NCBI GenBank assembly: GCA_030730585.1
Contig: JANQUV010000005.1
Span: 1 to 50,031, forward strand
Source of the DNA: Haliea sp.
GTDB taxonomy: Bacteria > Pseudomonadota > Gammaproteobacteria > Pseudomonadales > Halieaceae
Length of the DNA: 50,031 bases
Direction of reading: 5' to 3'
Part shown: piece by piece, positions 4,464-50,029 of the stretch
Numbering within the stretch: position 1 is the first letter of the stretch
Layout of the letters: each line of letters begins with the position of its first letter
Notes under the pieces: model-generated
The model's database searches: none
The model's input: only the letters and a program-made list of their open reading frames with translations
What the model was told of the DNA's origin: nothing
Program-made: the position numbers and the translations under genes

Positions 4464-4865
4464 CTACTTAACGATTTTTAGCGCCGGGCGCCCCTCCGAC
4501 TTTGAGCCGGCAGAACCACCGCCAGTATCTGGCGGATCGTTGGGAGGCTCCGGGGAGATCTCAGGCTCAAACACCATGCCTTGCCCATTTTCCCGTGCGT
4601 AAATCCCCAACACAGCGCCGACGGGGAGCAGAATATCGGTTGGAGCACCGCCGAAACGGCCATTAAAGCTGATCCACTCATTACCTACCAAGAGCTCTAC
4701 AACGGCGCTCGGGCTGATATTCAACACAATCTGCCCATCCTTCACGTACTGCGTGGGCACCTCGACGCCGGGCCGCTTGGCGTCTACCAGCAAATACGGC
4801 GTGCAGTCGTTATCGACGATCCACTCGTACAGGGCCCGCATGATATACGGGCGGCTCGGGGTCAT
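4464..4865 (-). CDS. sspB: ClpXP specificity-enhancing factor SspB
   Basis: SspB is an adaptor that tethers ssrA-tagged and some other substrates to the ClpXP protease. The protein has 133 residues: a substrate-binding domain (about 1-105, with S-R-P-Y-I-M-R-A-L-Y-E-W-I-V-D-N-D near the start and a W-I-S-F-N-G-R-F-G-G strand-loop), a Pro/Gly/Ser-rich flexible linker, and a short C-terminal tail ending P-A-L-K-I-V-K. That tail is the ClpX-binding peptide of the family. I chose ATG 4865 by comparison with known SspB N-termini. A GTG at 4886 would add seven residues, and neither start has a good Shine-Dalgarno sequence. It follows sspA closely, as in E. coli and Pseudomonas. Confidence 0.93.
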   Translation of the reverse strand: MTPSRPYIMRALYEWIVDNDCTPYLLVDAKRPGVEVPTQYVKDGQIVLNISPSAVVELLVGNEWISFNGRFGGAPTDILLPVGAVLGIYARENGQGMVFEPEISPEPPNDPPDTGGGSAGSKSEGRPALKIVK

Positions 4866-4904
4866 TGTGGGAGTATCATCGCTCACGGCTCAGCTCAGAG
4901 CGCC

Positions 4905-5537
4905 CTAAGGGCGCATCTCGCGCTCCTGCTCGGAGAGGCTTTCCTGGAATGACTCACGGCCAAACAGCGCATCCATATAAGCCAATAGTGGCTTGGTTTG
5001 CTTACCTGGGCGCACATCAATCCCCAGTGAAGGCAGGCGCCACAAAATAGGGGCCAAACAACAATCCACCAGAGTGAACTCCTCACTCATGAAAAACGGT
5101 TTTTCAGCAAAGATGGGTGCAATGCCTACCAGGCCATCGCGGAGCTCTTTAGTCGCTTTGCTCACTACATTGTCGCTGCGCGAATGCTGAATAGAGTCGA
5201 CCAGAGAGCACCAGTCTTTTTCAATCCGGTGAATATACAGGCGGCTTTCAGCACGTGCTACCGGATACACCGGCAACAGCGGGGGGTGCGGAAACCGCTC
5301 GTCCAGATACTCCATCATGACCTTGGATTCATACAGCACAAGGTCGCGGTCAACCAGCGTTGGCAGAGAATTGTAAGGATTCAGATCAGCCAGCTCAGCC
5401 GGCGGATGAGCGCTGTCCGACTCGATCATATCAACAGTGACACCTTTTTCAGCGAGTACGATACGTACCCGGTGGCTATACTGGCTGGTACTGTCGGAAA
5501 AAAAGGTCATGGAAGATCGTTTCGCCACCACACCCAT
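4905..5537 (-). CDS. sspA: Stringent starvation protein A, SspA
   Basis: SspA is a glutathione-S-transferase-fold protein that binds RNA polymerase and alters promoter choice in stationary phase and stress. The 210-residue protein has the N-terminal thioredoxin-like domain (about 10-90, with [14 protein letters not shown] and the S-L-P-T-L-V-D turn) and the all-helical C-terminal domain (about 95-205, with [13 protein letters not shown] near its start). I chose ATG 5537, which gives the family start M-G-V-V-A-K-R-S; longer starts at 5561 (ATG) and 5594 (TTG) add residues without counterparts. It sits downstream of the cytochrome bc1 genes and upstream of sspB, a common gammaproteobacterial order. 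Confidence 0.93.
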
Positions 5538-5585
5538 TGCGTTGTCATCAGCTCGTTTCATAGTGCAATCCAGAACAGTGAGGGA

Positions 5586-5604
5586 GGCCGGCAAGACGCC
5601 GGCC
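5586..5604 (-). terminator. GC-rich hairpin after the cytochrome b/c1 gene
   Basis: A perfect 7-bp inverted repeat (5586-5592 with 5598-5604, five-base loop) lies eleven bases past the stop codon of the fused cytochrome gene. No T-run follows on the minus strand, so it may be a weak or Rho-assisted terminator, or an mRNA-stabilising 3' end. The repeat is seen and the role is inferred. Confidence 0.4.
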
Positions 5605-5615
5605 CCGGGGGCGTA

Positions 5616-7655
5616 TCAGTGTATGTCTTTCCAATATTCGCGATTCAGCAGCCACGCAAAAATAAAGAACAGCACGATGAACAACAAAACATACACACCG
5701 ATGCGCTGCCGGTCAGCGGCGCTCGGCTCAGCGGTGTAGGCCAGGAAATTCACCAGATCATACATCGCGCCATCAAACTCTTCAGGCGACATCGACCCTT
5801 CCTGCGCCAGATCGAACTGACCGCAGGGCTCTTCCAGCAGCGGCTCGCCCGTCAGAGGATCACGGCGGACCCCCCCATTATGGGCCTTGGAAGGGCCCAT
5901 AGCGCAGGTTTGCAAACCCTGCAGCTCAAGCAGGATGTGCGGCATGCCCACATCCTTGAACACCTTGTTATTCACGCCGTAAGGACGGCTTTCATCCAGG
6001 TAAAACGTGCGCAAATAGGTATACAGCCACTCCGGTTGACGGGCGCGTGAAATCAACGTCAAATCTGGCGGTGCTGCACCAAACCAGACCTTGGCCAAAC
6101 GGTCGTCCATCGCGTTTTCCATCAACGACCCAATGCGCACTGCGGGGTCAAAGATCAGGTTCTCGCTGAACAAATCTTCAGGGATACCCAGATCTGCCGC
6201 CGTACGGTTATAACGTGCGTATTGCAGCGAATGGCAGGCCATACAATAGTTCATAAAAACCTTGGCGCCATTCTGCAGTGATTCCTTGTCATGAGGATTC
6301 ACGCTGATTTCATCGCAAGGAATGGAACCGCAGTTGTACTCACCAGCGGCGCCCACGGCCTTCAGCGGCAAAATAGTCAAGGCGAGAATGATCGCCAAGC
6401 CAGCAATACTGCCCCAGAAGCCAATACCGCCGTCCATGGTCACCCGTTCTGGCACTGGCTTGGTTTTATCCAAGGTGGACCAAATAGGCATCAGCAGGAA
6501 GAAGGCGAAGTAGAACACTGAACAAATCTGCGCCAGCACTGTGCGCTCGGGGGTGGGCGACTTCACACCCAACACACCGAGGATCAGGAAGCAGGCAACG
6601 AACAAGACCAGCATCACCTTGTTCAGGTTACCTCGGTAGCGCCAGGATTTAACCGGGTTGCGATCCAACCAAGGTAGCAGGAACGGAATCGCGACCGAGG
6701 CTGCGAAGGCAATAAAACCCCAGAACTTGTCCGGCACTGCACGCAGCACCGAATAGAAGGGGGTGAAGTACCACACGGGGGCGATATGATTCGGAGTTTT
6801 CAGTGCATCAGCTTGTTCAAAGTTGGCGTATTCCAAAAAGAATCCGCCCATTTCCGGCATGAAGAACATGATGCCACAGAAGATGAACAAGAACACGCCG
6901 ATCGCCTGAAGATCGTGCACCGTGTAGTAAGGGTGGAAGGCTACGCCGTCGAGCGGAATACCATCCGGACCCTTGGTTTTCTTGATATCAACACCGTCAG
7001 GGTTGTTCGAACCCACTTCGTGCAAAGCCAGCAGGTGCAGCACAACCAGGGCGAGCAAAACGATAGGCAGCGCCACGACATGCAGTGCAAAGAATCGATT
7101 CAGCGTGACGCCGGAAATCAGGTAGTCGCCGCGAATCCACGTCACCAGGTCGTCGCCAACGACAGGGATAGCGCCGAACAGTGAGATAATCACCTGCGCA
7201 CCCCAGTAGGACATCTGCCCCCAAGGCAGCACGTAGCCTACGAAGGCTTCGGCCATCAACACGACGAAAATAAGCATACCGAACACCCAGATCAGCTCAC
7301 GCGGCTTCTTGTAAGAACCGTAGATGAGTGCCCGGAACATGTGCAAATACACCACCACAAAGAAAGCAGAGGCGCCGGTGGAATGCATATAACGCAGTAT
7401 CCAACCGTAATCGACATCACGCATGATGTACTCAACGGAGGCGAAAGCTTCCTCCGCGCTGGGCGTGTAGTTCATCGTCAACCAGATGCCGGTAAGCAGC
7501 TGATTCACCAACACCAATAACGAGAGGAAGCCAAAGTAATACCAGAGATTAAAGTTCTTAGGCGCGTAGTATTGGCCCATGTGAGTATTCCACGCGCGCA
7601 TGATCGGCAGGCGTTCATCTACCCAATCGCGCAATCCTACCAACATATTGATCAT
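5616..7655 (-). CDS. fbcH: Fused cytochrome b / cytochrome c1 of the ubiquinol-cytochrome c reductase
   Basis: One 679-residue frame holds both membrane haem subunits of complex III, which oxidises ubiquinol and reduces cytochrome c at the inner membrane. Residues 1-405 are cytochrome b: haem ligands H91, H105, H192 and H207, and the quinol-oxidation motif P-V-W-Y at 293-296 (the beta/gamma-proteobacterial form of PEWY). Residues 409-430 are hydrophobic and end in a V-G-A-A signal-peptidase-like site. Cytochrome c1 follows with C-M-A-C-H at 471-475, a probable axial Met571, and a C-terminal membrane anchor (about 653-670). In Pseudomonas these are two genes. The fused form resembles fbcH of Bradyrhizobium, which is cut by signal peptidase after translation. 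An internal ATG at 6437 could start c1 separately but lacks a clear Shine-Dalgarno sequence. The start overlaps the petA stop. Confidence 0.93.
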   Translation of the reverse strand: MINMLVGLRDWVDERLPIMRAWNTHMGQYYAPKNFNLWYYFGFLSLLVLVNQLLTGIWLTMNYTPSAEEAFASVEYIMRDVDYGWILRYMHSTGASAFFVVVYLHMFRALIYGSYKKPRELIWVFGMLIFVVLMAEAFVGYVLPWGQMSYWGAQVIISLFGAIPVVGDDLVTWIRGDYLISGVTLNRFFALHVVALPIVLLALVVLHLLALHEVGSNNPDGVDIKKTKGPDGIPLDGVAFHPYYTVHDLQAIGVFLFIFCGIMFFMPEMGGFFLEYANFEQADALKTPNHIAPVWYFTPFYSVLRAVPDKFWGFIAFAASVAIPFLLPWLDRNPVKSWRYRGNLNKVMLVLFVACFLILGVLGVKSPTPERTVLAQICSVFYFAFFLLMPIWSTLDKTKPVPERVTMDGGIGFWGSIAGLAIILALTILPLKAVGAAGEYNCGSIPCDEISVNPHDKESLQNGAKVFMNYCMACHSLQYARYNRTAADLGIPEDLFSENLIFDPAVRIGSLMENAMDDRLAKVWFGAAPPDLTLISRARQPEWLYTYLRTFYLDESRPYGVNNKVFKDVGMPHILLELQGLQTCAMGPSKAHNGGVRRDPLTGEPLLEEPCGQFDLAQEGSMSPEEFDGAMYDLVNFLAYTAEPSAADRQRIGVYVLLFIVLFFIFAWLLNREYWKDIH

Positions 7656-8251
7656 CAGGCTGCCTCCGTGTCCACGCCAATAACCAGAACCGACTCAGTC
7701 TCATAGGAGTACGGCGGCACCACCAGATTGGTGGACGCCGGGACGCCAGCGTAGACACGCCCGGACAGATCGAACTTTGAACCATGGCAGGGGCAGAAAA
7801 AACCGCCAAGCCACGCATCGCCACCCAAATCGGCGGCGCCAACCTCCGGCCGGAACTTGGGAGCACAGCCAAGATGGGTACACAGGCCTTCAACCACCAG
7901 CATTTCAGGCCGCAGCGCTCGCGCCGCACCTTCGATATAGTCTGGTTGGCTTGAAACCAACGACTCAGGATCTTTCAATTCGCCGGTCAACAGATCCAGG
8001 CTAGCGAGCTGAGCTTCAGTGCGATGAACAACGTAGACAGGCTTACCCCGCCATTCCACCACAACCATCTGGCCCGGCTCCAGTTTGCTGATATCGGCCT
8101 TGACAGGCGCACCAGCGGCCTTGGCCTTGGCTGAGGGGTTCCAGGATCCCACGAAGGGCACCGCAATACCTACCGCGCCCGCAACGCCGACTACGCTCGT
8201 TGCGGCCGTCAGGAAACGCCTCCTGCCGGTGTTCACGCCATCGCTACTCAT
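7655..8251 (-). CDS. petA: Rieske iron-sulfur subunit of the cytochrome bc1 complex
   Basis: This is the Rieske subunit, which carries electrons from ubiquinol at the Qo site to cytochrome c1. It has 198 residues. The N-terminus carries a twin-arginine-type sequence (G-R-R-R-F-L near 9-14) ahead of a hydrophobic helix, which serves as uncleaved membrane anchor. The cluster-binding motifs are both present: C124-T-H126-L-G-C129 and C153-P-C155-H156-G-S158. H126 and H156 with C124 and C153 hold the 2Fe-2S cluster; C129 and C155 form the stabilising disulfide. A good Shine-Dalgarno sequence (AGGAGT) precedes the ATG. It is first in the operon petA-cytochrome b/c1, and sspAB may be read from the same transcript. 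Confidence 0.97.
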   Translation of the reverse strand: MSSDGVNTGRRRFLTAATSVVGVAGAVGIAVPFVGSWNPSAKAKAAGAPVKADISKLEPGQMVVVEWRGKPVYVVHRTEAQLASLDLLTGELKDPESLVSSQPDYIEGAARALRPEMLVVEGLCTHLGCAPKFRPEVGAADLGGDAWLGGFFCPCHGSKFDLSGRVYAGVPASTNLVVPPYSYETESVLVIGVDTEAA

Positions 8252-8488: not shown

Positions 8489-8881
8489 TCAGCGCTTGGA
8501 GTACTGCGGACGCTTGCGCGCTTTGCGCAAACCCACTTTCTTACGCTCCACTTCACGTGCATCGCGGGTAACATAACCCGCCCGCCGCAGTGCGCCACGC
8601 AGTGCTTCGTCGTAGTCCATCAGTGCGCGAGTGATACCGTGACGGATGGCGCCTGCCTGGCCGAAGCTGCCACCGCCTTCGACTGTCACATTCACGTCGA
8701 ACTTGTCTGCAAGCTCGACCAACTCAAGCGGCTGGCGAACAATCATGCGCGCCACTTCACGGCCAAAATACTGGTCGAGAGGGCGCTTGTTGACCGTGAT
8801 GTTGCCGCCACCGGTCTTGATGAAAACACGCGCCGTTGAGGTCTTGCGGCGGCCGGTTCCGTAGTACTGGGTTACTGACAT
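8489..8881 (-). CDS. rpsI: 30S ribosomal protein S9
   Basis: S9 is a small-subunit protein whose basic C-terminal tail reaches into the P site and touches the tRNA anticodon stem. The 130-residue protein is the standard length, has the family N-terminus ([16 protein letters not shown]) and the conserved end K-R-P-Q-Y-S-K-R. It lies 13 bases after rplM, the near-universal rplM-rpsI operon. Confidence 0.99.
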
Positions 8882-8894
8882 AGGAATAATTCCG

Positions 8895-9323
8895 TTAAAT
8901 GTTCAATGCTTGCGGCTGCTGCGCGGTATGCGGATGCTCTGCGCCCGCGTATACCTTCAGCTTCTTGAACATGGCACGACCCAGCGGGTTGCGGGGCAGC
9001 ATGCCCTTCACCGCCGTCTGGATGACACGCTCAGGCGCCTTGTCGATAAGCTTCTCAAACGAGATGGACTTGATCCCACCAATAAACCCGGTGTGATGGT
9101 AGTACATCTTATCTTTGGCCTTGGCACCGGTCACATGAATTTTCTCCGCATTAATCACCACGATATAATCACCGGTATCGACGTGGGGAGTAAATTCAGC
9201 CTTGTGCTTGCCGCGCAGGCGGCGGGCGATTTCGCTGGACAGGCGCCCGAGGGTTTTGCCTGAGGCGTCGACGACAAACCAGTCGTGGCGCACATCTTCG
9301 GCTTTGGCACTGAAAGTTTTCAT
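8895..9323 (-). CDS. rplM: 50S ribosomal protein L13
   Basis: L13 is an early-assembling protein of the large subunit. The protein has 142 residues, the usual length, starting M-K-T-F-S-A-K and containing the conserved [12 protein letters not shown] near the middle and [12 protein letters not shown] after it. I chose ATG 9323 because it has an AAGAGG Shine-Dalgarno sequence and matches the family start; the frame stays open to 9350. It is the first gene of rplM-rpsI and has a strong promoter directly upstream. Confidence 0.99.
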
Positions 9324-9364
9324 GAATAAACGCCTCTTGGAGGGCTCCAATTTCGAGAGCGCGA

Positions 9365-49954: not shown

Positions 49955-50029
49955 TGGGGTGTCGCCAAGTGGCAAGGCACCGGGTTTTGATCCCGGCATT
50001 CGTAGGTTCGAATCCTACCACCCCAGCCA
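49955..50029 (+). tRNA. tRNA-Gln (anticodon UUG)
   Basis: The 75-base sequence folds as a full cloverleaf: acceptor stem TGGGGTG with CACCCCA, the anticodon stem CCGGG/CCCGG around loop TTTTGAT (anticodon TTG at 49987-49989), T arm GTAGG TTCGAAT CCTAC, discriminator G and an encoded CCA end. It reads CAA, and CAG by wobble. Position after ispE and, presumably, before prs is as in Pseudomonas. It may be cut from the ispE transcript, as only 17 bases separate them. Confidence 0.98.

Follow-up and report, generated by a model that had tools for sequence, protein, structure and literature searches.

The locus described here raises the question of whether cytochrome b and cytochrome c1 of a Haliea sp. 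are truly encoded as one protein, how widely such a fusion occurs, and what becomes of the c1 signal peptide once it lies inside a longer chain. The window, a 50,031-nucleotide stretch at the start of contig JANQUV010000005.1, carries on its minus strand (5616..7655) a single ATG-started open reading frame of 679 amino acids, petBC, in which cytochrome b is followed by cytochrome c1. Within this frame, Pfam places Cytochrome_B at residues 28–215, Cytochrom_B_C at 281–383, and Cytochrom_C1 in two stretches, the best of which spans 453–558. The cytochrome b part (residues 1–406; 6438..7655, minus strand), as delimited by Pfam, alignment, and motifs, contains His91, His105, His192, and His207, which we take to be the haem-b ligands, and the sequence PVWY at 293–296, presumably the Qo motif. 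The mature cytochrome c1 part (residues 437–679; 5619..6347, minus strand; Pfam and motifs) contains CMACH at 471–475 (6231..6245, minus strand), which we take to be the haem-c attachment motif, and GMPH at 570–573, in which Met571 is presumably the axial ligand. It ends in a hydrophobic stretch (residues 647–675; 5631..5717, minus strand), taken to be the c1 membrane anchor, which is found by hydropathy and as helix 646–678 in an AlphaFold2 model.

The two parts are joined by residues 407–436 (6348..6437, minus strand), which comprise the junction and a ninth helix, recognized by reading the junction, by AlphaFold2, and by hydropathy (hydrophobic stretch 408–439). By comparison, the cytochrome b core has eight helices in known structures. 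The ninth helix would be the former c1 signal peptide. It ends with PLKAVGA at residue 436, and a signal peptidase I cut is predicted between residues 436 and 437 (6347..6348, minus strand), with Val and Ala at −3 and −1. In an alignment of 28 fused sequences, the window and 27 others, His91, His105, His192, His207, Pro293, Trp295, Tyr296, Cys471, Cys474, His475, and Met571 are invariant (28/28). The whole genome gives two Cytochrom_C1 match pieces, both inside the petBC frame. The original prediction of one 679-residue frame holding the b ligands, PVWY, CMACH, and the c1 anchor is thus borne out by the open reading frame, Pfam, and motifs. Sequence features expected of a bc1 complex (petABC) are found, namely two haem-b His pairs and a Qo P-x-W-Y in the cytochrome b part, and CxxCH, an axial Met, and a C-terminal anchor in the c1 part. 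So are sequence features of a precursor like FbcH, as the gene of the fused Bradyrhizobium precursor is called, which signal peptidase reportedly cleaves: cytochrome b and c1 share one stop-free frame, and an internal helix is followed by a signal peptidase site according to the sequence rule. Mature c1 opens with a CGxIxC Cys pair (window 6309–6347), which is common to many fused c1 sequences and is also present in some split c1 sequences of the order (L192, L193, L195, L197, and L198); the pair possibly forms a disulphide.

On the minus strand of the window, petBC lies in the gene order rplM, rpsI, petA, petBC, sspA, sspB. The genes for ribosomal proteins L13 (rplM, 8895..9350) and S9 (rpsI, 8489..8881) precede petA (7655..8251), identified by profile matches as the Rieske iron-sulphur subunit and of the proteobacterial type (TIGR01416, scoring 217 bits where the cut-off is 97.4), whose stop codon shares one base with the petBC start. 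Downstream lie a gene for a GST-fold protein (4905..5594; GST domains), which we take to be SspA from its context, and sspB (4464..4886). Among the named loci, petA, rpsI, and sspA are all in reach in 25/30 fused and 21/49 split cases, the loci without the full set being explained by a contig end, the flank length, or true absence. Since the split relatives share this gene order, the petB-petC fusion most likely arose in place at the ancestral locus. Elsewhere in the window, a tRNA-Gln (ttg) is found at 49955–50029 on the plus strand, and no other RNA family reaches its gathering score within the window.

The fusion is a clade-wide trait, as the original prediction had suggested it might be. 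Close relatives are not all split, and 7/7 relatives in the genus are in fact fused. A single stop-free match runs over the b-c1 junction in 105 of the 115 genomes searched in the window's family. Among the others, one genome (G758) has only a divergent split pair, with 58% and 38% identity (read as L272), six are cut or fragmentary at bc1 (G756, G766, G767, G768, G776, and G788), with the locus running into a contig end on direct reading in G766, G767, and G788, and three (G008, G760, and G802) have no bc1 match of the petBC kind. It is vanishingly improbable that the fusion is an assembly or sequencing artefact, since separate assemblies agree in these 105/115 genomes, including the single-contig G190, G743, G761, G762, and G797; an assembly artefact is ruled out by this count. 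Divergent split bc1 pairs have been observed in two assemblies of family f1, L272 in G758 and L273 in G809, the latter beside a fused copy on another contig. These pairs represent either a second bc1 or contamination, the assemblies being listed at 3–4% contamination. In another, single-contig genome, the cytochrome b part falls into two overlapping matches (G759:C1:3504833-3506868), owing to either a frameshift or a sequencing error.

In the order, 276 of the 293 genomes searched have a match. At least 73 (window included) show one stop-free match spanning the junction, and at least 14 further two-piece "long" cases have been read as one frame. Two-piece matches were counted only after stop-to-stop reading, because the open-frame lengths from the match search can cross a stop; family f14, for example, gave 735 aa, yet is split when read directly. 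Fused loci have been read in 14 family codes (f1, f4, f9, f10, f11, f13, f16, f24, f25, f41, f42, f44, f46, and f47), and the named fused records, several of which are MAGs, include Haliea, Luminiphilus, Seongchinamella, Zhongshania, Gilvimarinus, Marinimicrobium, Cellvibrio, Candidatus Endobugula, Pseudohongiella, and Porticoccaceae. All 20 of 20 Pseudomonas-titled loci are split. At the level of the class (203 genomes searched, 166 with a match), the window's is the sole stop-free junction-spanning match among the matches listed, and the listed frames of at least 570 aa are split on direct reading. Every judgeable listed junction of the class outside the order is split, in agreement with the earlier statement that other gammaproteobacteria have two genes. 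In the phylum (249 genomes searched, 220 with a match), the stop-free junctions outside the order among the matches listed are found in five genomes of one genus (f236 g368, 6.9–8.8 Mb), which are read as Bradyrhizobium-like.

In 24 of the 30 split loci of the order (L177, L190–L216, L228, and L229), a candidate petC start lies in a different frame from petB and shares 1 or 4 bases with its stop; the split petB of the order typically closes with ..PVPERVT and a further one to three residues. Fused genes typically continue from ..PERVT into a short stretch (e.g., MDGGIGFW), a hydrophobic segment, and PLKAVGA, after which the predicted mature c1 begins with E. Among 94 unique fused junctions, 87 fit the consensus and the other 7 have AxA. 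The −3/−1 rule holds in 94/94 fused junctions, the −3 residue being V (80) or A (14) and the −1 residue A (81) or S (13), figures that the locating pattern partly encodes; of cytochrome b body positions, 9.9% fit the rule. The motif P[LIM]KA occurs in 67/94 fused junctions and in 0/116 split loci, the split set not being de-duplicated, and at the sequence level it is a mark of the fused state.

The reading that we regard as probable is that petB and petC of a rplM-rpsI-petA-petB-petC-sspA-sspB locus were joined into one frame in an ancestor of a large part of the order, leaving the old c1 signal peptide inside the protein as a ninth helix, with a cut after residue 436. By analogy with the known fold, of which 8smr is the closest solved example, the end of cytochrome b would lie on the cytoplasmic side, and the ninth helix would cross outward and carry c1 into the periplasm. 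A cut by signal peptidase I after residue 436 is probable and would give a nine-helix cytochrome b and a c1 in equal amounts. A c1 N-terminus near residue 437 had been expected in the original prediction, and our own sequence-based prediction, a cut after Ala436, agrees. Because the ninth helix leads out from the cytoplasmic end of cytochrome b, c1 would be periplasmic whether the chain is cut or not. The topology suggested by hydropathy and the known fold therefore also fits a protein that stays uncut, with b and c1 in one chain and the ninth helix as a tether, and the helix is indeed more alike among fused proteins than signal peptides are among split ones in most of the identity bins given below. 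Such an uncut chain is nevertheless unlikely, given that the −3/−1 site is found in every one of the 94 fused junctions, that the aligned site fails the rule in f14 (4/4), where c1 is a separate gene, and that the Bradyrhizobium precursor, reportedly cleaved, offers a precedent. The cut after residue 436 is favoured because the site is conserved and is lost in f14, where c1 is detached.

A further possibility is that c1 is made mainly by internal initiation at Met407, much like an overlapping gene within the long frame. An in-frame ATG lies at most 19 codons from the PxR in 68/94 fused genes, and the mean best Shine-Dalgarno energy there is −4.35, between the averages for ATGs of the cytochrome b body (−2.21, n = 1050) and for split petC starts (−5.48, n = 110). 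However, the value of −4.35 is the best of several while the body control is not, the Met407 site of the window scores only −3.8, the MDGG of its n-region is acidic, and the continuous frame is kept in 105/115 family genomes. The 26/94 fused genes that have no such ATG rule out internal initiation as a general route, and as the main source of c1 it is very improbable.

Coming back to the fused and probably cleaved protein, the ninth helix may have acquired a role of its own. In the AlphaFold2 model of petBC, a helix spans residues 412–437 and the confidence breaks at 437–440; the model is weak to medium (mean pLDDT 64.7) and supports the helix segment, not its packing. The junction helix of fused proteins was compared with the c1 signal peptide of split ones at matched c1 identity, for which 26 of 28 split loci of the order were usable. 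At c1 identities of 0.45–0.50 the two are alike (0.31 for the fused helix and 0.30 for the split signal peptide), whereas the fused helix is more similar at 0.50–0.55 (0.39 and 0.30), 0.55–0.60 (0.46 and 0.32), 0.60–0.65 (0.49 and 0.32), 0.65–0.70 (0.53 and 0.34, with 5 split pairs), and 0.70–0.80 (0.63 and 0.50, with 7 split pairs). On the other hand, pN/pS is 0.39 and 0.57 for the helix in two fused sets against 0.26 and 0.61 for the signal peptide in two split sets, and pN normalised to the cytochrome b body is ~3.8 and 2.6 against 4.8 and 3.0, a slight difference, with synonymous sites near saturation. Across these two fused and two split sets, pN/pS gives no consistent extra constraint on the fused helix relative to ordinary c1 signal peptides. 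A structural role of the ninth helix in the fused members is plausible, and the best evidence for it comes from family f14.

In f14, c1 is a separate gene in 5/5 loci read (L183–L186 and L265), which cover five of the six genomes listed (G149 was left out). The petB of this family continues through the junction stretch (ERITMNGGIG-like; DRITMNGGIG in L183) and the helix before it terminates, for example at ..PLWLVEWLHSVNQAAAH; the fifth locus, L265, has the helix and the stop like the other four. In the four loci examined, petC has its own signal peptide, and at the aligned cleavage site the −3/−1 rule does not hold in any of the four tested. The locus is otherwise as in the fused relatives, with petA and sspA found in 5/5. 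The cytochrome b-only tree places f14 within a 32-row, otherwise fused group (SH-aLRT 96, starred). A further tree has 140 rows, a chosen part of 230 classified records; L225, whose c1 piece is too short, had been dropped, as had L138, L146, L218, L132, L136, L139, and L141 (partial or redundant). A concatenated tree of 96 rows was made after 20 long-branch or remote rows and 24 near-duplicates, 44 in all, had been removed from the 140. In these two trees, f14 falls in the fused group with a support of 97 (starred) for 96 rows and 93 (not starred) for 140 rows. Over six f14 pairs, the helix varies less than the c1 signal peptide, with pN of 0.28 (pS 0.68) against 0.47 (pS 0.75), and the cytochrome b body has 0.09 (pS 0.74).

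The f14 branch appears to have split the fusion again while keeping the leftover helix. In one account, held tentatively at a little under an even chance, cytochrome b took over the signal peptide for good as a ninth transmembrane helix, which remains built into the bc1 core once c1 has been cleaved off, and f14 underwent fission after fusion, with the helix left behind and the cleavage site lost. It is also quite possible, if doubtful, that a fused-type cytochrome b lost its c1 and that recombination with a relative supplied a split-type c1 with its own signal peptide. Points in favour are that the f14 c1 is more divergent from the window (50–54% identity) than the f14 cytochrome b is (78–81%), and that, by path length in the c1-only tree, the two f14 rows shown have the split f31 and f32 as their nearest neighbours beyond their own family. 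In the same tree, however, the sister of f14 is the fused L180 (f44), followed by the fused f13, with weak supports of 59 and 32, and the c1-only AU test rejects f14 neither as a member of the fused cytochrome b clade (p-AU 0.31) nor as a member of the split clade (p-AU 0.42). Either way, by fission or by replacement of c1, the f14 cytochrome b kept the helix.

The trees also bear on whether the genes were joined once or several times; a single fusion followed by splits fits the data, and so do as many as three fusions. With f14 scored as split, the fused/split label changes 5 times on the 140-row tree. Several independent fusions, in the main clade, in the f44/Pseudohongiella group, and in f46, are conceivable at not quite even likelihood. 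They would account for the split rows that sit between the fused groups in the best trees and for the f44 junctions, which read ERVTGR.. or similar against ERVTMDGG... Against them, a single clade of all 64 fused rows costs 26.9 log units and is not rejected (p-AU 0.165), and the ending PLKAV[GA]A is common to some f44 members and L176, with P[LIM]KA absent from all 116 split loci. In the best tree, the branch that separates the main fused group together with f14 (57 rows) from the other rows has a support of only 34. On the 140-row tree, the fused L145 (f1) stands beside the split f27 on long branches, a placement that the program flags as doubtful. Within f46, one member is fused (L176) and another split (L177), and the L176 cytochrome b is on a long branch.

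Fused proteins also differ in length. Among the 94 unique proteins, 77 have a short form and 17 (L156–L158, L169–L171, L175, L187–L189, L217, L033–L037, and L044) a long form with ~60 extra residues before the junction, apparently two more helices. The long label is scattered, with 10 changes on the 140-row tree. To the eye, the long-form insert looks like the last helix repeated, and a comparable extension is present in L222, a split gene from outside the order.

The fusion is less of a surprise than the original prediction implied, because the fused state is in print for other lineages: PMC4013037 names Bradyrhizobium, all Bradyrhizobiaceae, some Rhodospirillales, and Planctomycetes. The same paper states a tally of fused bioenergetic proteins, including fused cytochrome b, also over the beta- and gammaproteobacteria, so that gammaproteobacterial fused cases may already be counted there. 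A literature search by title or abstract found no description of a b-c1 fusion in the order, with the reservation that this tally may include such cases, and did not find the ninth helix or the f14 state described. As a kind, the fused b-c1 is already known (alphaproteobacteria, Planctomycetes), and the f14 state is the most striking part of the present observations. Few respiratory enzymes are as conserved as cytochrome bc1, and in this clade its two haem subunits are joined and lengthened, and apparently re-separated in place in one family. Nature thus provides a way to test whether a signal peptide inside a fused membrane protein is cut, and how a respiratory complex comes by additional helices. 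As petBC fusions are normal in part of the order, they should not be annotated as frameshifts or artificially split.

Several known systems resemble petBC in part. According to PMC6606698, the complex III cluster CIII_2 of Nitrospira moscoviensis has a single gene for a fusion of cytochrome b with a cytochrome c; the passage does not call the c part a c1, and the systems are compared by description only. In Aquifex aeolicus, c1 has a fused extra N-terminal transmembrane helix, according to PMC10041115. That helix belongs to c1, while the ninth helix here would remain on cytochrome b if the protein is cleaved. The same paper describes subunit IV of the Rhodobacter sphaeroides bc1, a single extra helix with which the activity is threefold higher. 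Subunit IV is the product of a separate gene and provides a model for a possible effect of the ninth helix.

The closest solved relative is the Pseudomonas aeruginosa bc1 in the bc1-cbb3 supercomplex (PDB 8smr), whose cytochrome b is 72% identical over 400 columns and whose c1 matches petBC residues 447–676. The Pseudomonas locus L077 has rpsI, petA, and sspA as neighbours, as in the window. In Pseudomonas, however, the two proteins are separate chains, the petC start overlaps the petB stop (gap −1 in L077 and L085), and cytochrome b is 403 aa long and lacks a ninth helix.

The likeness to FbcH lies in the single frame, with cytochrome b first, then an internal signal-peptide-like helix, and then c1, so that the same order of parts is seen as in the Bradyrhizobium precursor to which the layout had originally been compared. 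The Bradyrhizobium-like genes (f236 g368), on the other hand, are 37–39% identical, have PEWY instead of the PVWY found here, and carry an unrelated linker (e.g., ..AKAAEGG against PLKAVGA). Horizontal gain from a Bradyrhizobium-like donor is ruled out, as identity, Qo motif, and junction all differ. Because the junction is unrelated, the Qo motif is PEWY, and the identity is this low, the two fusions have separate origins as far as sequence comparison goes, which upholds the earlier suggestion of an independent fusion; petBC would work like FbcH, yet was joined separately.
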